In this document: positions 6,560-33,607 of the stretch, in pieces
Position numbering within the stretch: the first letter of the stretch is position 1
Layout: the number at the start of each line of letters is the position of its first letter
Origin: Amycolatopsis thermoflava N1165
GTDB lineage: Bacteria > Actinomycetota > Actinomycetes > Mycobacteriales > Pseudonocardiaceae
Assembly (NCBI RefSeq): GCF_000473265.1
Contig: NZ_KI421511.1
Span: 3,757,560 to 3,821,559 of the forward strand
Direction of reading: 5' to 3'
DNA length: 64,000 bases
Notes under the pieces: generated by a model
Told to the model about the DNA's origin: nothing
The model's database searches: none
What the model saw: only the letters and a program-made list of their open reading frames with translations
Program-made: the position numbers and the translations under genes

Positions 6560-8046
6560 TCAGGAGTTGCGCGGGAAGCCCAAGTTCACCCCGCCCTGCG
6601 AGGGGTCCGGCCAGCGCGACGTGACGACCTTGGTCCGGGTGAAGAAGTGGAACCCTTCCGGCCCGTAGGCGTGGCTGTCGCCGAAAAGGGAGTCCTTCCA
6701 GCCGCCGAACGAGTAGTACCCGACGGGCACCGGGATGGGCACGTTGAGCCCGACCATCCCGACCTCGACCTCGTTCTGGAACCGCCGCGCGGCGCGGCCG
6801 TCGTTGGTGAAGATCGCCGTCCCGTTGCCGTAGGCGTTGGCGTTCACCAGCGCCAGCGCGTGGTCGTAGCTGCCGGCCCGGACGACCGACAGCACCGGGC
6901 CGAAGATCTCGTCCGTGTAGATCGACATGTCGGTGCGCACCTGGTCGAACAGCGTCGGCCCGAGCCAGAACCCGCCGCCGGGCACCGAAACCGACCGGCC
7001 GTCCACCACGAGCGACGCCCCCGCCGACACCCCGGCCTCCACATAGGACTGCACCCGGTCGCGGTGCGCCGCCGTCACCAGCGGGCCCATCTCCGAGTCC
7101 GGCGACCGCCCGTCGCCGACCGTCAGCGAGCCCATCCGGGACGCGATCTTCGACACCAGCTCGTCGCCGACCGGATCCACGGCGACCACCACGGACACCG
7201 CCATGCACCGCTCCCCCGCCGATCCGAACCCGGCCGACACGGCGGCGTCCGCGGCGAGGTCGAGGTCGGCGTCGGGCAGCACGACCATGTGGTTCTTCGC
7301 TCCGCCCAGCGCCTGCACCCGCTTGCCGTGCGCGGTGCCCGTCTCGTACACGTACCGCGCGATCGGCGTCGATCCGACGAACGAGATCGCCTTCACCACC
7401 GGATGGGTCAGCAGCCCGTCGACCGCGACCTTGTCCCCGTGCAGCACGTTGAGCGCCCCGTCCGGCAACCCGGCCTCGGCGAACAGCTCGGCGATGAACA
7501 GCGACGCCGACGGGTCCTTCTCGCTCGGCTTGAGCACGACCGTGTTGCCGCAGGCCAGCGCGTTGGGCACGAACCACAGCGGCACCATCGCCGGGAAGTT
7601 GAACGGCGAGATCACCCCGACCACGCCGAGCGGCTGCGCGATCGAGTACACGTCCACGCCGGTGGAGGCGTTCTCGCTGAACCCGCCCTTGAGCATCTGC
7701 GGCGCGCCGCAGGCGTACTCGACGTTCTCGATGGCGCGGGCGATCTCACCGGCCGCGTCGGAGAGGACCTTGCCGTGTTCCGCGGTGATGATCGCCGCCA
7801 GCTCATCCTTGCGCTCGGTGAGCAGCTCGCGGAAGCGGAACAGCACCCGCGACCGCGCCGCGAGCGAGGTGTCCCGCCAGCCGGGGAAGGCGCGCGCGGC
7901 CGCCGACACGGCCTCGTCCACCTGCCCGCCACCGGCGAAGTCCACGCGCGCGCGCACTTCACCGGTGGCGGGGTCGAACACCTCCCCGGTCCGGTCCGGA
8001 ACCCCAGCCCACGGCTTGCCGTCGATCCAGTGGCTGATCCGCGGCG

Positions 8047-8050
<4 letters not shown>
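6560..8050 (-). CDS. mmsA: CoA-acylating methylmalonate-semialdehyde dehydrogenase
   Basis: Encodes 496 residues of the aldehyde dehydrogenase superfamily. The MmsA/IolA branch is indicated by QALGGAKNHMVVLPDAD, the catalytic Cys in GSAGERCMA and the FGGWKDSLFGDSHAYGPEG region. These enzymes convert methylmalonate or malonate semialdehyde to propionyl- or acetyl-CoA with NAD+ and CoA, the last step of valine and of thymine/uracil breakdown. The GTG start overlaps the aminotransferase stop by 4 nt (GTGA), so the two are co-transcribed. Its place beside pyrimidine-catabolic genes suggests it handles semialdehydes made by the preceding transaminase. Confidence 0.93.
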
Positions 8051-9345
<1,295 letters not shown>

Positions 9346-9391
9346 GCCCGCCAGTCTCGGTGGCCGCCGCGCCCGCCCACCACACACAACA

Positions 9392-9419
9392 TGTACCCAA
9401 TGGCCGGATCGGCCGTACA
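9392..9419. promoter_or_regulatory. Candidate operator in the aminotransferase/pucR divergent promoter
   Basis: The 101-bp divergent intergenic region holds two overlapping inverted repeats: TGTAC (9392-9396) with GTACA (9415-9419), and GGCCG (9402-9406) with CGGCC (9410-9414). Such symmetry midway between a regulator and its divergent target is typical of an operator; the adjacent PucR protein is the obvious binder. This is inferred from symmetry alone. Confidence 0.45.
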
Positions 9420-9446
9420 GTCTGCTTTCTGCGGAGGTGGTGGCGC

Positions 9447-11063
9447 TTGTACCCGACGGTCGCGGACGTGCTGGCCCTGCCGGTGCTGCGGCACGGCCGC
9501 CCGAAGGTCGTGGCAGGCGGGCAGAAGCTGGACACCCGCGTGCGCTGGGTGCACGTCGCCGAGGTCGCCGACATCGGGCACCTGCTCAAGGGCGGCGAGC
9601 TGGTCCTCACCACCGGGATCGCGCTGCCGGACGACGCCGCGCAGCTGGCGAAGTACGTGGACGGGCTCGCCGAGGCCGGGGTCGCCGGGCTGGTGGTCGA
9701 GCTGGTCCGGCACTGGAGCGACGCGCTGCCGCGGGCGCTGGTCGACGCGGCCGCGCGGCACGAGCTGCCGTTGATCACGCTGTCCCGCGAGACGCGGTAC
9801 GTCGCGGTCACCGAGGCGGTGAACGGGCTGATCGTGGACGCCCAGGTCGCCGAGCTGCGCGCCGCCGAACACGTGCACCAGGTGTTCACGCAGCTCACCG
9901 TCGCGGGAGCGGAACCGGCCGAGGTGCTGCGCGAGGTCGCGCGCATGACCGAGTCGCCGGTGGTGCTGGAGACCCTGGCCCACGAGGTGCTCGCCTACGA
10001 CTCCGCGGGCGCCGATCCGGCCGAGCTGCTGACCGGCTGGCCGTCCCGCTCCCGCACCGTGCACCTGGGCGAGCGCACCGGCTACCACGCCGACGCCGGC
10101 TGGCTGGTCACCGTCGTCGGCGCGCGCGGGCACGACTGGGGACGGCTGGTGGTCGTGTGCGACGAGCCGCCGCCGGACCGGCACGTCGTGGTCGCCGAGC
10201 GGGCGGCGTCCGCGCTCGCGGTGCACCGGCTGGTCGCGCGCGAGGCGGACAGCCTGGAGCGGCAGGCGCACCGCGCGGTGCTGGCGGAGCTGATGACCTC
10301 GCCCGCCCCGTCCACCGAACTGCTGGCCCGCGCGGCCGCGCTGGGCTCGCCGTTGTCCGGGCGGCTGGTGGGCGTCGCGGTCCGGCCGCGGATGACCGCG
10401 TCGCAACGGCAGGCGGCGTCCGCGCCGACCGTGCTGCGGGACCTCGCCGAGACCGTCTCCCTGGCCACCCGCCGGGCGAAGGTCTCCGCGCTCGTGGCGG
10501 TCGTCGACGACGTCAGCGTGCGTGCGCTGCTGTCGCTGTCGCCGCAGGCCAACGTCGACGCGGTGCTGCGGCGGCTGTCCGCCGAGCTGCGGGCCCGCCC
10601 GACGTCGGTGCCCGTGGTCCTGGCGGTCGGCACGGTGGTGGACAGCGCCGCCGACGCCCGCCGCAGCCTGGTCGAGGCCGCCCACGTCGCCGCGGCGGCG
10701 CTGCGCTCGGACACCGACCGCGAGGTCCACCGGCTGCAGGACGTCCGCCTGCGCGGGCTGCTGCACCTGCTCGCCGACGACGAGCGCGTGCGGGCCTTCG
10801 CCGAGCGCGAGCTGGGCCCGCTGTTGTCGCGGGACGCGGCATCGGGCACCCGGCTGGTGCAGGCCCTGCGGCACTACTGCGAGCACGGCGGCAACAAGTC
10901 CGCCGCGGCCGCGGCCGCGCACACCTCCCGCACCGCCTACTACCAGCAGCTCGCCCGCATCGAGCAGGTGCTCGGCGTGCCGCTGGAGGACCCTGAATCG
11001 ATGCTGTCGCTCTACCTCGCGCTGCTGGCCCATGATCTTTTCGACGATCACCCGAACCGGTAA
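9447..11063 (+). CDS. PucR-family transcriptional regulator
   Basis: Encodes 538 residues. The N-terminal PucR domain (YPTVADVLALPVLRHGRPKV onward, with GGELVLTTG) is followed by a central GGDEF-like segment and a C-terminal helix-turn-helix (LRHYCEHGGNKSAAAAAAHT, then RTAYYQQLARIEQVLG). Family members control purine, pyrimidine and amine catabolism. The TTG at 9447 was chosen because GGAGGTGG lies 9 nt upstream and the PucR domain begins right there. It is divergent from the aminotransferase/mmsA pair and upstream of the NCS1-pyd genes, so it probably controls both arms. Confidence 0.92.
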   Translation: MYPTVADVLALPVLRHGRPKVVAGGQKLDTRVRWVHVAEVADIGHLLKGGELVLTTGIALPDDAAQLAKYVDGLAEAGVAGLVVELVRHWSDALPRALVDAAARHELPLITLSRETRYVAVTEAVNGLIVDAQVAELRAAEHVHQVFTQLTVAGAEPAEVLREVARMTESPVVLETLAHEVLAYDSAGADPAELLTGWPSRSRTVHLGERTGYHADAGWLVTVVGARGHDWGRLVVVCDEPPPDRHVVVAERAASALAVHRLVAREADSLERQAHRAVLAELMTSPAPSTELLARAAALGSPLSGRLVGVAVRPRMTASQRQAASAPTVLRDLAETVSLATRRAKVSALVAVVDDVSVRALLSLSPQANVDAVLRRLSAELRARPTSVPVVLAVGTVVDSAADARRSLVEAAHVAAAALRSDTDREVHRLQDVRLRGLLHLLADDERVRAFAERELGPLLSRDAASGTRLVQALRHYCEHGGNKSAAAAAAHTSRTAYYQQLARIEQVLGVPLEDPESMLSLYLALLAHDLFDDHPNR

Positions 11064-26095: not shown

Positions 26096-27664
26096 ATGCC
26101 CGCTCTGAGCCGCCGCACCGTGTTCAAGGGGGCGGCCGCCGCCACGGGCCTGACCCTCCTGCCGGGCGCCGCGTCCGCGAGCCGGGTGCCGGTCACCCGC
26201 GAGGAGCACCGGGTCGTGGTCATCGGCTCCGGCTTCGGCGGGGGCGTGACCGCCCTGCGGCTCGCGCAGGCCGGGGTGCCCGTGCACGTCCTCGAACGCG
26301 GCATCCGCTGGCCCACCGGCCCCAACGCCGAGACCTTCCCCCACCCCACCGCGCCGGACAAGCGGATCTTCTGGCTCGGCTCCGAGCCCAACCTGTTCGG
26401 GCTCGTGTCGTTCCCTTTCGAGCGCTACACCGGACTGCTGGAACGCGTGCCGGGCAACGGCATGGACATCATGTGCGCGGCCGGTGTCGGTGGCGGATCG
26501 CTGATCTACCAGGGCATGACGCTCCAGCCGACCGAGGAGGTGTTCAACGCCAACTTCCCCGAACAGCTCGACTACGCGCGGATGGACCAGGTGTACTACC
26601 GGCGCGTGGCGAGCATGCTGCGCATCGCCACCGCGCCCGACGAACTGATCGCCAGCCCGACCTACGCGGCGGCGCGCGTCTTCGCCCGCAACGCCCGCGC
26701 CGCCGGCCACTCGGTCGAGAAGATCCCGATGCCGATCGACTGGAGCTACGCCCTGCGCGAGCTGAGGGGCGAGATGAAACCGTCCTACACCAACGGCGAC
26801 TGCGCGTTCGGCGTCAACAACGGTGGCAAGCACTCGGTCGACGTCACCTACCTCGCGGCCGCCGAAGCCACCGGCCGCTGCACCGTCGCGCCCCTGCACA
26901 ACGTCACCGATGTGGCGATGGCGCCCGACGGGCGCTGGCTGATCCACGTGGACCGCATCAACACCGGCGGCGTCGTGCTCGAAAAGAAGGTCCTCACCGC
27001 GAGCGCCCTCGTGATGGCGGCCGGCACGGCGAACACCACGAAGCTGCTGATGCGGGCCGGCGCCACCGGCGGGATCCCCGACCTGCCGGACGGCCTCGGC
27101 ACGAACTGGGGTTCCAACGGCGACCAGATCTACACGTGGACCAGCCTCGCCGACGACTTCGGCTCCCCACAGGGCGGCCCGGTCATCTACGGCAGCAAGG
27201 AGTGGGACGACCCGGCGCTGGCCAACACGGTCATCCAGGCGTCCCTCCCGCCGCTGCCGAACCTGCGCACCACGATGCTCGTCGGCTACGGCGTGAGCGC
27301 GGGGCGCGGCCATTTCGTCTACGACCCGGCCAAGGACGACGCGGTGTTGCAGTGGCCAGGTGACGCGGACGCCAAGGTGGCGCAGCGCATCCACGAGCGG
27401 ATCACCGACATCGGCGGAGCCGCCGCCGTCAAGCTCAACACCACGACGCTCGTGCCGAGCACGTGGCACCCGCTCGGTGGCGCGTCCATGGGCACGGTCT
27501 GCGACCTCGCCGGCCGCGTCCTCGGCCACCGCGGGCTCTACGTGCTCGACGGCGCCCTCATGCCGGGCAACACCGCCGCGTGCAACCCGTCCATGACCAT
27601 CGCCGCCGTCGCCGAACGAGCCCTGGACGAAATCGTCGCCCAGGACGCAGGCACTGTCTTCTGA
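26096..27664 (+). CDS. Tat-exported GMC oxidoreductase, cholesterol-oxidase-like
   Basis: Encodes 522 residues. A twin-arginine signal (LSRRTVFKGAAAATGLTLLP, cleaved near GAASA) precedes a FAD-binding Rossmann motif VVVIGSGFGGGVTALRLA. MCAAGVGGGSLIYQGM, NNGGKHSVDVTYLAAA and the active-site His in TWHPLGGASMG with Asn in ACNPSMTIAA match class I cholesterol oxidases, which fold with FAD and are exported through Tat. The usual glutamate of the lid could not be assigned with confidence. The ATG follows GGAGGACCC. The last 80 codons are the template of a tandem repeat downstream. Confidence 0.9.
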   Translation: MPALSRRTVFKGAAAATGLTLLPGAASASRVPVTREEHRVVVIGSGFGGGVTALRLAQAGVPVHVLERGIRWPTGPNAETFPHPTAPDKRIFWLGSEPNLFGLVSFPFERYTGLLERVPGNGMDIMCAAGVGGGSLIYQGMTLQPTEEVFNANFPEQLDYARMDQVYYRRVASMLRIATAPDELIASPTYAAARVFARNARAAGHSVEKIPMPIDWSYALRELRGEMKPSYTNGDCAFGVNNGGKHSVDVTYLAAAEATGRCTVAPLHNVTDVAMAPDGRWLIHVDRINTGGVVLEKKVLTASALVMAAGTANTTKLLMRAGATGGIPDLPDGLGTNWGSNGDQIYTWTSLADDFGSPQGGPVIYGSKEWDDPALANTVIQASLPPLPNLRTTMLVGYGVSAGRGHFVYDPAKDDAVLQWPGDADAKVAQRIHERITDIGGAAAVKLNTTTLVPSTWHPLGGASMGTVCDLAGRVLGHRGLYVLDGALMPGNTAACNPSMTIAAVAERALDEIVAQDAGTVF

Positions 27665-28303
27665 GGAGACCAATGAAGCGTCCCGCCGCCCTGCCCGCCG
27701 CGGCAATGCTCGCCCGCGGCGTGCCCATGGACACGCCGCCGTCAAGCTCAACACCACGACGCTCGTGCCGAGCACGTGGCACCCGCTCGGTGGCGCGTCC
27801 ATGGGCACGGTCTGCGACCTCGCCGGCCGCGTCCTCGGCCACCGCGGGCTCTACGTGCTCGACGGCGCCCTCATGCCGGGCAACACCGCCGCGTGCAACC
27901 CGTCCATGACCATCGCCGCCGTCGCCGAACGAGCCCTGGACGAAATCGTCGCCCAGGACGCAGGCACTGTCTTCTGAGGAGACCAATGAAGCGTCCCGCC
28001 GCCCTGCCCGCCGCGGCAATGCTCGCCCGCGGCGTGCCCATGGACACGCCGCCGTCAAGCTCAACACCACGACGCTCGTGCCGAGCACGTGGCACCCGCT
28101 CGGTGGCGCGTCCATGGGCACGGTCTGCGACCTCGCCGGCCGCGTCCTCGGCCACCGCGGGCTCTACGTGCTCGACGGCGCCCTCATGCCGGGCAACACC
28201 GCCGCGTGCAACCCGTCCATGACCATCGCCGCCGTCGCCGAACGAGCCCTGGACGAAATCGTCGCCCAGGACGCAGGCACTGTCTTCTGAGGAGACCAAT
28301 GAA
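27421..28303 (+). repeat. 313-bp direct tandem repeat of the GMC gene 3' end (about 2.8 copies)
   Basis: Units start at 27421, 27734 and 28047; the third ends at 28303. Each unit holds the last 80 codons of the GMC gene including the TGA stop, the following ribosome-binding site GAGGAGACC, and the first codons of a next gene (MKRPAALPAAAMLARGVPMD) before jumping back to GMC sequence. Copies 1 and 2 appear identical base by base; copy 3 diverges after ATGAA. The junction lies at CGCCGCCGTC. Since 313 is not a multiple of 3, the frame shifts at each junction and only the first copy belongs to the intact enzyme. The body of the next gene is missing. Confidence 0.95.
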
Positions 28304-28350
28304 ACGTCAGGAGGTGCCTACCGAATCGGCCGCCGGTCCGGTGCCGCCGA

Positions 28351-29541
28351 TCAGTCCCAGGTGACCGGCAGCCGGTGGACGCCGTAGATGCTCATGTCGT
28401 GTCGCAGCGGCACCTCGTCGGCCGGGACCGCCAGGCGCAGCGTCGGGAACCGGGCGAAGAGCGCAGGGATGGCGACGCGCATTTCGACGCGGGCCAGCTG
28501 CTGCCCCAGGCACTGGTGGATGCCGTGGCCGAAAGCCAGGTGCCCGGCGGCGTGCCGGCGCAGGTCGAGCGTGTCCGGGTCCGGGAACCGCTCCGGGTCA
28601 CGGTTCGCGGCGTTCGCGGCGATGGTGACCGACTCGCCGGCCCGGATCACCTGACCATCCAGCTCGACGTCCTCCAGCGCGGCCCGGACACCGGTGTGGG
28701 CGATGGTCAGGTAGCGGAGCAGCTCTTCGACCGCGCTGTCCGCGAGGGCCGGGTCGTCGCGGAGCGCGGCGAGCTGGTCCGGGTGGCGCAGCAGGGCGAA
28801 GGCGCCCAGCGCGATCATGTTGGCGGTGGTGTCCAGGCCTGCCCCCAGCAGGAACGTGCCGATGCCGGACAGTTCCTCGTCGGTCAGGTCGCTCGTGGTG
28901 AGGTCGCCGAGCACGTCGTCGGTGGGCTCGGCGCGTTTGGCGCGCACCAGGTCGCGCAGGTAGTCCTGCAGCGCGCCGTACGCGGCGAACTGCTCGTCCG
29001 GCGTGCTCTGCGGGGTCATCAGCGCCGTCACCTGGGTGTGGAAGAACTCGCGGTCGGAGTACGGCACGCCGAGCAGCTCGCAGATCAGCACCGCGGGCAC
29101 CGGGCGCGCGTAGGCCTGCACCAGGTCCACCGAGGGGCCGTGCTTCGCCATCGCGTCCAGGTGCTCGGCGGCGACTTCCTCGACCCGCTCGGTGAGCTGA
29201 CGCATCCGGCGGACGGTGAACTTCCCGGCGAGCAGCTTGCGGTAGCGGGTGTGCTCGGGCGCGTCGATGCCGGTGAGGTCGCCGACCGGGGCCGGCGGGA
29301 TGTCGCCGTCCAGGCCGGGGAGCGGGTAGTGCATGAGCTCGTACCGCGAGGTGAACCGCGAGTCGCCGAGCACGGCGCGGGCCTGGGCGTGACCGGTGAC
29401 CAGCCAGCCGCGGTGCCCGTCCGGGTAGGACATACGCACGAGGGGCCGATGTGCCCGGATCTCGCCCAGCTCGGCGGGCGGGTCGAAGGGGCAGCCGGCG
29501 GGACGGGCGGTGGGCAGCGAGGCCAGTTCGTCTTGTTCCAT
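28351..29541 (-). CDS. Cytochrome P450 (CYP107-like class)
   Basis: Encodes 396 residues, a normal length for soluble bacterial P450s. The heme-binding loop [15 protein letters not shown] (Cys344), the I-helix oxygen-activation motif [10 protein letters not shown], the ExxR helix (VEELLRYL) and [17 protein letters not shown] are all intact. It needs an external ferredoxin and reductase, neither encoded here. The ATG at 29541 lacks a ribosome-binding site; CACGCT lies 6 nt upstream, so the mRNA may be leaderless. The stop at 28351 is just 48 bp from the repeat array. Substrate unknown. Confidence 0.93.
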
Positions 29542-29841: not shown

Positions 29842-29916
29842 TGGTGCGCGATACTGGGATTGAACCAGTGACCTCTACCGTGTCAAGGTAGCGCTCTCCC
29901 GCTGAGCTAATCGCGC
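29842..29916 (-). tRNA. tRNA-Val (GAC anticodon)
   Basis: Folds as a full cloverleaf on the minus strand: acceptor stem GCGCGAT/ATCGCGC, D-arm TTAGCTCAGCGGGAGAGC, anticodon loop TTGACAC (anticodon GAC), T-loop GGTTCAATCC. Discriminator A and CCA (29845-29842) are encoded in the DNA. Its 5' end is a single nucleotide from the encoded CCA of tRNA-Gly, so the two mature from one precursor. Confidence 0.96.
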
Positions 29917-29917
29917 G

Positions 29918-29993
29918 TGGAGCGGACGACGGGATTCGAACCCGCGACCCTCACCTTGGCAAGGTGATGCGCTACCAGCTGCGCTACGTCCGC
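29918..29993 (-). tRNA. tRNA-Gly (GCC anticodon)
   Basis: Cloverleaf on the minus strand: acceptor stem GCGGACG/CGTCCGC, D-arm TAGCGCAGCTGGTAGCGC, anticodon stem-loop CACCTTGCCAAGGTG (anticodon GCC), T-loop GGTTCGAATCC. Discriminator U and CCA (29921-29918) are encoded. It is the 5' member of a Gly-Val pair. In many actinomycetes a tRNA-Cys gene sits between the two; none is present here. Confidence 0.96.
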
Positions 29994-30074
29994 GTGTGGC
30001 GCCGGGTTCCGGCGCCGGGAAAGAGAATAGCCGACGGGCCTGCCGGCCTCGCAACCACCCGGCGTAACCGGCCC

Positions 30075-30490
30075 GCGCAGCCCGTCACGAACGGCAGGCG
30101 CAGCCCTCACGAACGGCAGGCGCACCCTCACGAGCGGCCCGGCGCAGCCCATCACGCGCGGTCCACGAAACCCGCCGCAAGCGGTCGGCGCAGCCCATCA
30201 CAAACGGCCGGCGCAGCCATCACAAGCGGCCCGCGCAGCCCGCCACAAGCAACGCGGGCTCAGCCCGTCACAAGCAACCCGGCACAGCCCGCCACAAGCA
30301 GCCCGCGCAGCCCGCCACAAGCAACCCGGGCTCAGCCCGCCACAAGCGGCCCGGCACAGCCCATCACAAGCAACCCGGGCTCAGCCCGCCACAAGCAGCC
30401 CGGCGCAGCCCATCACAAGCGCCCCGCACAGCCACAAGCGGCCGGCGCAGCCCGCCACAAGCGGTCGGCGCAGCCCGTCACGAACGGCCG
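30075..30490. repeat. Degenerate ~22-25-bp tandem array reaching into the siderophore-interacting protein gene
   Basis: About 17 imperfect units with the plus-strand core GCGCAGCCCRTCACAAGCGGCC fill the gap between tRNA-Gly and the siderophore-interacting protein gene. The last unit (30468-30490) contains the final codons Gly-Arg-Ser and TGA stop of that gene, so the array looks like serial copies of a gene end. Units vary in spacer (CGGCCG, CAACCCGG, CAGCCC). No palindromic, evenly spaced repeat structure and no cas genes are present, so it is not a CRISPR. Open frames across it are compositional. Confidence 0.9.
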
Positions 30491-31293
30491 GCGGCCTCCT
30501 CGGCGGCGCGCTCCGCGGCCTTCTCCGCTCGCCACTCCTCGTCCGTCTTGCCCCGGCGCCAGTAGCCCGAGATCGACAGCAGGTCCTTGCGCACCCCGCG
30601 CTCGCCCAGCAGGTGCCGGCGCAGCTCCCGGACGAAACCGGCCTCGCCGTGGACGAAGGCCTGCACGGTGCCCGGCAGGAACTCCAGCGCGCGCACGGCG
30701 GCCACCAGGTCGTCCCCGGCGGACCGGTGCAGCCACTGGATCTGCGCGTCCCCCTTGGTGGCGAGCGGCTGCTCCTCCGCGGGGTCCGCCACCTCGATGA
30801 ACGCCCGCACCGGCACACCGGCCGGCATCATCTCCAGCGCCACCGCGATCGCGGGCAGTGCGCTCTCGTCGCCGACCAGCAGGTGCCAGTCGGCCTCCTC
30901 GCCGGGGGCGTAGGCGCCGCCGGGGCCGGCCAGCAGCAGCTCGTCACCCGGCTGGGCGGACGCCGCCCACGGGCCGCCGAGCCCCTGGTCGCCGTGGTGC
31001 ACGAAGTCCAGCGCCAGCTCGCCGGCGCGCGGGTCGTAGTAGCGCACGGTGTAGGTCCGCATCACCGGCCACTGCTCGCGCGGCATCTCGGCGCGGATGA
31101 CGCCCATGTCGAACGGCGCCGGGTACTCCACGCCCTCCTGCGGGAACAGCATTTTCACATAGGCGTCGGCGAACTCGTTCGGCTGGAAATCGGCCAGCCC
31201 TGGCCCACCGGCGACAATGCGGATCATGTGCGGTGTCAGCCGCTGGGTGCGCAGCACCCGCAGCCGGACCGCCGGCCGGGACTTGCCTGCCAT
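30478..31293 (-). CDS. Siderophore-interacting protein (FAD-dependent ferric reductase)
   Basis: Encodes 271 residues of the ViuB/SIP family. The FAD-binding domain contains MRTYTVRYYDPRAGELALDF, the NAD(P)H-binding C-terminal domain has HLLVGDESALPAIAVALEMM, and VHGEAGFVRELRRHLLGERG with SGYWRRGKTDEEW ends the family core. These cytoplasmic enzymes reduce ferric siderophores to release iron. The ATG at 31293 has GGAGCGGCGT upstream, and an IdeR/DtxR-type box lies 33 bp before it, so iron repression is expected. The Ala/Glu-rich C-terminus runs into the tandem array. Confidence 0.94.
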   Translation of the reverse strand: MAGKSRPAVRLRVLRTQRLTPHMIRIVAGGPGLADFQPNEFADAYVKMLFPQEGVEYPAPFDMGVIRAEMPREQWPVMRTYTVRYYDPRAGELALDFVHHGDQGLGGPWAASAQPGDELLLAGPGGAYAPGEEADWHLLVGDESALPAIAVALEMMPAGVPVRAFIEVADPAEEQPLATKGDAQIQWLHRSAGDDLVAAVRALEFLPGTVQAFVHGEAGFVRELRRHLLGERGVRKDLLSISGYWRRGKTDEEWRAEKAAERAAEEAAGRS

Positions 31294-32401: not shown

Positions 32402-32737
32402 CCGGCACCACCGGCGGCCTCAGCACCGACCACCTCCGCGACACGCTCCAGCACGCGGCGGGCAGGCCTACTCACTGACCACCTCCGCCAGCCACTCCAC
32501 CGCCACCGCGCCCGCCGGACATAGCCGCCGCCGGCACCGAGGACAACGCCCGCCCGATCCTCTCCACACGGCAACACCACACCGAACATCCGCACCACCG
32601 GACCGGGACTCACTCACCAACCACCTCCACCACCACGCCCACCGGACACGACCACCGCCGGCACCGAGAAGAAACGCCCGCCCGGTCCTCTCCACACGGC
32701 AACACCACGCCGAACATCCGCACCACCAGGCCGGGAC
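32402..32737 (-). repeat. Degenerate tandem copies of the moxR 3' end
   Basis: The gap between moxR and coxE is made of echoes of the moxR end. A ~128-bp unit (core TCTCCACACGGCAACACCAC at 32561 and 32689) occurs twice, each containing the complement of the moxR stop region. In translation the true end AVAVERLVEVVGE is echoed by AVAVEWLAEVVSE (stop at 32468) and by VLERVAEVVGAEA (about 32402-32440). Copies are diverged, so this is older than the 313-bp array. No separate gene is supported here. Confidence 0.75.
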
Positions 32738-33607
32738 TCACTCACCCACCACCTCCACCAGCCGCTCGACCGCCACCGCGCGGTCCTCTTCGTACTTGAG
32801 CACCGCGCTCAGCGTCCGCTCCACCGCCGGGCCGTCCAGTGCGGCCACACCGAGCACCTGCAGCGCCGAGGCCCACGAGATCGCCTCCGCGACCCCGGGC
32901 GGCTTGTAGAGCCCGAACCCGCGCATCCGCCCCACCGCCCGCGCCACACGGTCAGCGAGCCAGTCCGCCACGCCCGGCACCCGCAACCGGATGATGGCCG
33001 CCACCTGCGCCACCTCCGGGTGCGCGATCCAGTGGTACAGGCACCGCCGCTTGAGGGCATCGTGCAGTTCGCGGGTCCGGTTGGAGGTCAGCACGACCAC
33101 CGGCGGCACCACCGCGCGCCGCGTCCCCAGCTCCGGGATCGTCACCGCCGACTCGGCCAGCAGTTCGAGCAGGAACGCCTCGAACTCGTCGTCGGCGCGG
33201 TCGACCTCGTCGATCAGCAGCACCGCCGGGCGCGGTCCGGGGTGCGTGATCGCCGCCAGCAGCGGCCGCGCCAGCAGGTAGTCGTCGGCGAAGAGGTCCG
33301 CCTCCGCCAGCGACTCGCCCCGCGACTCGGCCAGCCGGATCCCGAGCAGCTGGCGCGGGTAGTTCCACTCGTACAGCGCGTCCGAAGAGGACAGTCCCTC
33401 GTAGCACTGCAACCGGATCAACGGCGTGTCCATGGCCGCCGCCAGCGACTTGGCCGCCTGGGTCTTGCCGACGCCGGGCTCACCTTCGAGCAGGATCGGC
33501 TGCCGCATCCGGACCGCGAGGAACAGGGCGGTGGCCAGTGCGTCGTCGGTGAGGTATCCGGCGGCGCCAAGGCGCTCGGCGAGATCGCCGACCGTCTCAG
33601 GCGTCAC
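32738..33607 (-). CDS. coxD: MoxR-family AAA+ ATPase, CoxD-type
   Basis: Encodes 289 residues. Walker A GEPGVGKTQ (about residues 42-50), Walker B AVLLIDEVDRADDEFE, sensor-1 VVLTSNRTRELHDAL and the arginine-finger region LKRRCLYHW are intact. MoxR/CoxD ATPases act as chaperones with VWA partners; in Oligotropha CoxD and CoxE mature the CuSMoO2 centre. The GTG start at 33607 lies inside the 3' end of the XdhC gene (11-nt overlap). Placement in the cox cluster supports the CoxD role. Confidence 0.9.
   Translation of the reverse strand: MTPETVGDLAERLGAAGYLTDDALATALFLAVRMRQPILLEGEPGVGKTQAAKSLAAAMDTPLIRLQCYEGLSSSDALYEWNYPRQLLGIRLAESRGESLAEADLFADDYLLARPLLAAITHPGPRPAVLLIDEVDRADDEFEAFLLELLAESAVTIPELGTRRAVVPPVVVLTSNRTRELHDALKRRCLYHWIAHPEVAQVAAIIRLRVPGVADWLADRVARAVGRMRGFGLYKPPGVAEAISWASALQVLGVAALDGPAVERTLSAVLKYEEDRAVAVERLVEVVGE

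Follow-up and report, generated by a model that had tools for sequence, protein, structure and literature searches.

How does an intact bacterial gene come to have its end in almost three head-to-tail copies, each joined to the first codons of a neighbour that seems to have gone? Is such an array real, how old is it, and does it serve any purpose? These questions are raised by a short region of the window, the whole 64,000-nucleotide stretch of the Amycolatopsis thermoflava N1165 genome analysed here, in which the end of an oxidase gene is repeated ahead of a convergent cytochrome P450 gene. On the evidence set out below, the most likely reading is that of a scar whose copy number is unstable, and not of a working element.

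Anatomy of the array

The genes and repeat units concerned are the following.

26096 to 27664, plus strand: intact GMC-family oxidase gene, 522 amino acids, cholesterol-oxidase-like (open reading frame, Pfam and PDB matches); its 3′ end is the duplicated part
27421 to 27733, plus strand: unit copy 1 (313 bp), with the last 80 oxidase codons and stop, a ribosome-binding site and the start of the lost gene (TRF and shift comparison)
27734 to 28046, plus strand: unit copy 2, identical to copy 1 (TRF and shift comparison)
28047 to 28303, plus strand: unit copy 3, 257 bp, truncated inside the start of the lost gene (TRF and shift comparison)
28351 to 29541, minus strand: convergent cytochrome P450 gene, the right-hand neighbour (open reading frame, Pfam)

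The oxidase carries both GMC_oxred_N and GMC_oxred_C (Pfam) above cut-off, and its nearest PDB sequences are cholesterol oxidases (E 2e-72), while it reaches 113.1 bits against a cut-off of 850 for the cholesterol oxidase equivalog NCBIfam NF058674; judged by these matches, the predicted enzyme is a GMC-family relative outside that equivalog. The best-matching named relative of the gene is that of Amycolatopsis tucumanensis, with 98% protein identity.

TRF run on the window gives a 313-bp unit in 2.8 copies at 27421-28308, with 99% matches and a score of 1769, the highest among the 17 TRF rows of the window, and direct comparison places the array at 27421-28303. Comparison of the sequence with itself at a 313-bp shift shows no difference from 27421 to 27990, as expected from the original prediction that the first two of 2.8 copies are identical. 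Copies 1 and 2 agree over all 313 bp, and copy 3, which is 257 bp long, matches them throughout, to ...ATGAA; the sole site differing among the aligned copies is 27678, where copies 1 and 2 have G and copy 3 has A, and after this base copy 3 gives way to other sequence. Because the copies are exactly identical, a chance origin of the repeat is excluded. Within the unit, the last 80 oxidase codons and stop (27421-27664) are followed by GAGGAG overlapping the stop, an ATG at 27673 and 20 codons to 27733, after which oxidase sequence restarts out of frame, an anatomy that reads as it had been described. Adjacent direct copies with a novel join, together with a single-copy state in genome G009 and in A. 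acidicola, make this a tandem segmental duplication, and the earlier reading of a duplication bridging two genes, the downstream one lost, is borne out.

How exceptional is such an array? When units of 60 bp or longer and matches of 95% or higher were required, a baseline of 20 stretches of 20 kb from the same genome (400 kb of 8.69 Mb) contained two arrays (161 bp x 2.7, 97%; 80 bp x 4.0, 95%), so the 313-bp array is a strong example and not a class of its own. The 161-bp array, large and near-identical, lies at L177 5231-5670 (G000:C1:7105231-7105670). Among other repeats, TRF finds in the window a 128-bp unit in two tandem copies at 32503-32760 (89% matches) and about 23-bp units in 18 copies at 30069-30493 (77% matches), the latter beside two minus-strand tRNA genes at 29845-29916 and 29921-29993 (Rfam).

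The lost downstream gene

Three short stretches appear to remain of the gene that once followed the oxidase.

27673 to 27733, plus strand: remnant of the 5′ end of the lost gene, about 20 codons, signal-peptide-like by eye, repeated at 27986-28046 (alignment with the A. acidicola gene start, 6/1000 shuffles)
28299 to 28308, plus strand: start of the lost gene after copy 3, codons 1-3 kept, cut at codon 4 by a deletion whose edge is ambiguous by 2 bases
28322 to 28354, plus strand: probable 3′ remnant of the lost peptidase gene, overlapping the end of the convergent P450 gene (1/1000 shuffles)

The candidate identity comes from A. acidicola (L039), in which a gene running from an ATG at 7599 to 9572 starts 26 bp past the oxidase stop; its scanned part (7620-9569, 650 amino acids) contains the Pfam domains Peptidase_S15 and PepX_C. 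The tail of the window unit aligns with the 5′ end of this peptidase gene at a score reached by 6 of 1000 shuffles, and the sequence right of the array aligns with its last codons, only one shuffle in 1000 being as good. The corresponding right-hand stretches of A. tucumanensis (3/1000) and G009 (0/1000) also match the 3′ end of the gene; these 3′-end alignments are short, 22-36 bp, but lie at the expected places. The A. tucumanensis tail gives no significant match to the A. acidicola peptidase start (154/1000). These short alignments support an S15/PepX-type peptidase as the most likely identity of the lost gene, of which just the two ends would be left. When the A. acidicola peptidase protein was searched for in the window genome, G009 and G017, only distant partial matches (29-46% identity) were returned. 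A secretory lipase (LIP), which is the neighbour found in that place in A. eburnea (L046), was also considered as the lost gene and rejected, with no significant match to either the unit tail (623/1000 shuffles) or the G009 spacer (233/1000).

The join in relatives

Is the join between units peculiar to this genome? Downstream of the oxidase stop, A. tucumanensis (L035) has the same tail, then the join in the same register, a decayed piece of oxidase, a probable peptidase 3′ end and the P450 gene, the join reading ATGGACACGCCGCCGTCAAGCTCAACACC in the window and ATGGAAACGCCACCCTCGAGCTCAACACC in A. tucumanensis. The second-copy piece differs from the species' own oxidase at 15 of 60 sites, with an alignment score of 54 that none of 2000 shuffles reaches (maximum 33). 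This decay (25% of 60 sites) exceeds the synonymous difference between the oxidase genes of the window and A. tucumanensis (Ks 0.17), and the piece thus fits an old, freely decaying copy, the dating of the duplication resting on those 60 bp. Genome G009 has one copy, followed by a spacer of 287 bp before the P450 end that contains a 36-nt match to the 3′ part of the peptidase gene; no significant oxidase remnant was found in this spacer by alignment (281/1000 shuffles score as well). The G009 oxidase orthologue itself (L116, G009:C1:1958900-1962600) lacks 2 bases opposite about 27568-27570 of the window and is frameshifted near its 3′ end.

Wider searches covered collections with one genome per species. 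A 430-bp query run against 390 genomes of the family, with two candidates scored per genome, found some match in 291, and among the matches listed only those of the window genome and G017 extend past the join. Across 80 named oxidase loci, three of which had less than 300 bp downstream, a second piece directly after the oxidase gene occurs in A. tucumanensis only. Weak matches of 20-59 bp, starting 205 to 1396 bases past the gene end, were rejected as tandem copies at four of the 80 loci (L041, L053, L068 and L072).

The shared join also bears on the assembly. Assembly errors are known to arise at tandem repeats (PMC6868369), and either the copy number or the whole array could in principle be wrong. 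Against this stand an assembly of 8.69 Mb in only 2 contigs, a third copy with its own right flank and one base differing from copies 1 and 2, and the presence of the join in the assembly of another species, which leave an assembly error very unlikely. An assembly artefact, earlier offered as a possible reason for the identity of the copies, is not supported as the source of the join, since that second assembly has it too. The flank and variant base of copy 3, together with the A. tucumanensis join, mean that at least two units are well supported; the three units as assembled are not proven.

Age of the join and identity of the copies

Since A. tucumanensis has the same join plus a decayed second copy, the join is probably older than the species, and the identity of the copies is probably more recent than the join. 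The suggestion of a recent event or gene conversion therefore holds for the copy identity and probably not for the join. At 27559, 27631, 27649, 27669 and 27672, A. tucumanensis agrees with G009 and both differ from the window, and all five window-specific bases are present in all three copies. Given an old join likely common to A. tucumanensis, the occurrence of these window-derived bases in every copy makes it likely that the copies were homogenised or re-amplified after the species split.

Which of the relatives is closest to the window genome? Shared derived sites were counted at five loci for the pairings window plus G009, window plus A. tucumanensis, and A. tucumanensis plus G009, respectively: 33/26/16 at the locus around 34.5-37.2 kb with 1.5-kb flanks, 25/10/4 in gyrB, 26/6/6 in parE (29/3/4 with the other outgroup), 15/10/5 in the oxidase gene and 14/5/0 in the P450 gene. 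All five favour the window and G009 as probable sisters with A. tucumanensis outside, the 34.5-37.2 kb locus only weakly. If the join is a single event and this grouping is correct, the duplication would predate the split of the three species and would have been lost in G009.

This ancestral duplication has a counterpoint: if G009 is the sister, it must have lost the extra copy, and no oxidase remnant shows in its spacer. Could the window lineage and A. tucumanensis each have duplicated the segment at the same microhomology, with a young array that needs no homogenisation? The CGCCGCCG-type microhomology at the join, the single copy of the probable sister G009 and the identity of the copies all speak for independent duplications, but the join stands in the same register in both species, and the adjoining stretch CGTGCCCATGGA is common to them and was not observed at the equivalent position of the G009 spacer, so that two separate events seem unlikely.

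A possible origin of the join

A second feature of the join concerns its possible origin.

27475 to 27496, plus strand: oxidase stretch matching the join in inverted orientation, the proposed template
27720 to 27741, minus strand: join of copies 1 and 2, 22 nt, 20/22 matching the reverse complement of 27475-27496, with the last 8 nt inside copy 2
28033 to 28054, minus strand: join of copies 2 and 3, with the same inverted match

In a 400-kb genome sample, 6 of 20,000 randomly placed controls reach the inverted-match score of a 42-nt stretch around the join; when only the part ahead of the join is scored, 54 of 20,000 such controls and 9 of 2000 shuffles are as high. The A. tucumanensis join scores 34 against the window oxidase gene, equal to the score of the window itself, and 29 against its own oxidase. 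A template switch may have copied a short inverted stretch and returned to the direct strand near CGCCGCCG, with about even odds against plain microhomology joining at CGCCGCCG, because the match was noticed post hoc and the tail can be read as plain peptidase sequence: the unit tail has a collinear alignment to the start of the A. acidicola peptidase gene as well (6/1000 shuffles), a reading that needs no template switch.

Does the array do anything?

Two kinds of activity can be imagined, through peptides or through RNA. The start codon of the lost gene does run out of frame into oxidase sequence, as originally predicted, and opens the following frame.

27673 to 27909, plus strand: 78-aa hybrid frame that opens with the lost-gene codons and continues through oxidase sequence out of frame; a second instance lies at 27986-28222 (no family match)

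This frame sits inside a longer mechanical open reading frame starting at GTG 27463 and has no Pfam and no NCBIfam match at E 0.001; the peptides read from this ATG in A. tucumanensis and G009 differ from that of the window, and the proposal that short hybrid peptides could be made thus finds no support. In copy 2, a predicted GTG frame of 70 amino acids (27765-27977) matches GMC_oxred_C with 52.2 bits, as expected of a duplicated oxidase terminus.

As RNA, each join between units would fold into a long hairpin (27700-27830, 131 nt, -78.2 kcal/mol, z -4.84, 0/200 shuffles), and the whole 313-nt unit also folds strongly (z -4.85, 0/100 shuffles). This folding speaks for a functional array, which might use such hairpins for stabilising or processing the oxidase mRNA, or make peptides from its extra frames. 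However, folds at least this strong occur in 17 of 1500 random 131-mers of the same genome, the A. tucumanensis counterpart has no strong fold (z 0.95), the hybrid frame matches no family and differs in relatives, and 27300-28500 contains no promoter-like site, no terminator-like site and no Rfam family at the gathering threshold (the window gave only the two tRNAs at 29845-29993). PADLOC families returned nothing bearing on the array. With neither a function nor a conserved hybrid peptide found for the array in these searches, a functional array appears highly improbable. No more credible is an array that is kept and not merely tolerated, in which silent 3′ copies would act as conversion partners holding or resetting the C-terminal stretch of the oxidase, or join hairpins would tune the mRNA, and copy number would set the level from strain to strain.

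A proposed history

Taken together, sequence comparison makes it probable that an ancestral duplication was followed by loss of the peptidase gene, with copies kept identical or re-amplified in the window lineage and decayed in A. tucumanensis. In an ancestor shared by this group of Amycolatopsis, faulty replication or recombination would have duplicated 313 bp bridging the oxidase end and the start of the downstream gene. Such a tandem copy across a gene boundary should leave both genes whole, the first copy completing the oxidase and the last beginning the next gene. The downstream gene would later have been deleted down to its two ends. Recombination between copies may then have kept the units identical in the window lineage, or re-amplified them from two to three, while in A. 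tucumanensis the second copy would have decayed and then been cut. The single copy of G009 would reflect a collapse, or a genome that never had more. Unequal crossing-over should make the copy number unstable.

Comparison with known systems

The array is an ordinary kind of event, and a literature search found no description of this particular one; no wider claim is made. What is added here is the likely identity of the lost gene, a common join that clears this assembly of the charge of artefact, and evidence for homogenisation. The locus is a compact, natural illustration of how a tandem duplication that spans a gene boundary can arise, remain identical in one lineage and decay in another while the gene next to it is lost; it can serve as an example and perhaps to mark strains, with no pointer to a new system.

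Bacterial VNTR or minisatellite loci consist of identical head-to-tail units whose copy number is expected to vary; the window units are likewise head-to-tail and identical, but the unit is long and built of two gene ends. Quasipalindrome or template-switch mutations leave a short inverted match to nearby sequence, as found at the window join, which differs in that the match lies where direct tandem copies meet and in that its template-switch origin has about even odds. In Acinetobacter baylyi, as described in PMC9997567, a first join with little or no homology is followed by recombination between repeats that expands or collapses the array. The window resembles this duplication-amplification in the little homology at its first join and the probable later recombination between copies. 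Unlike the A. baylyi units of 12-290 kb given there (PMC9997567), the window unit measures 313 bp and shows no sign of selected gene dosage, and, in a further difference, its join is probably old and the identity of its copies recent.
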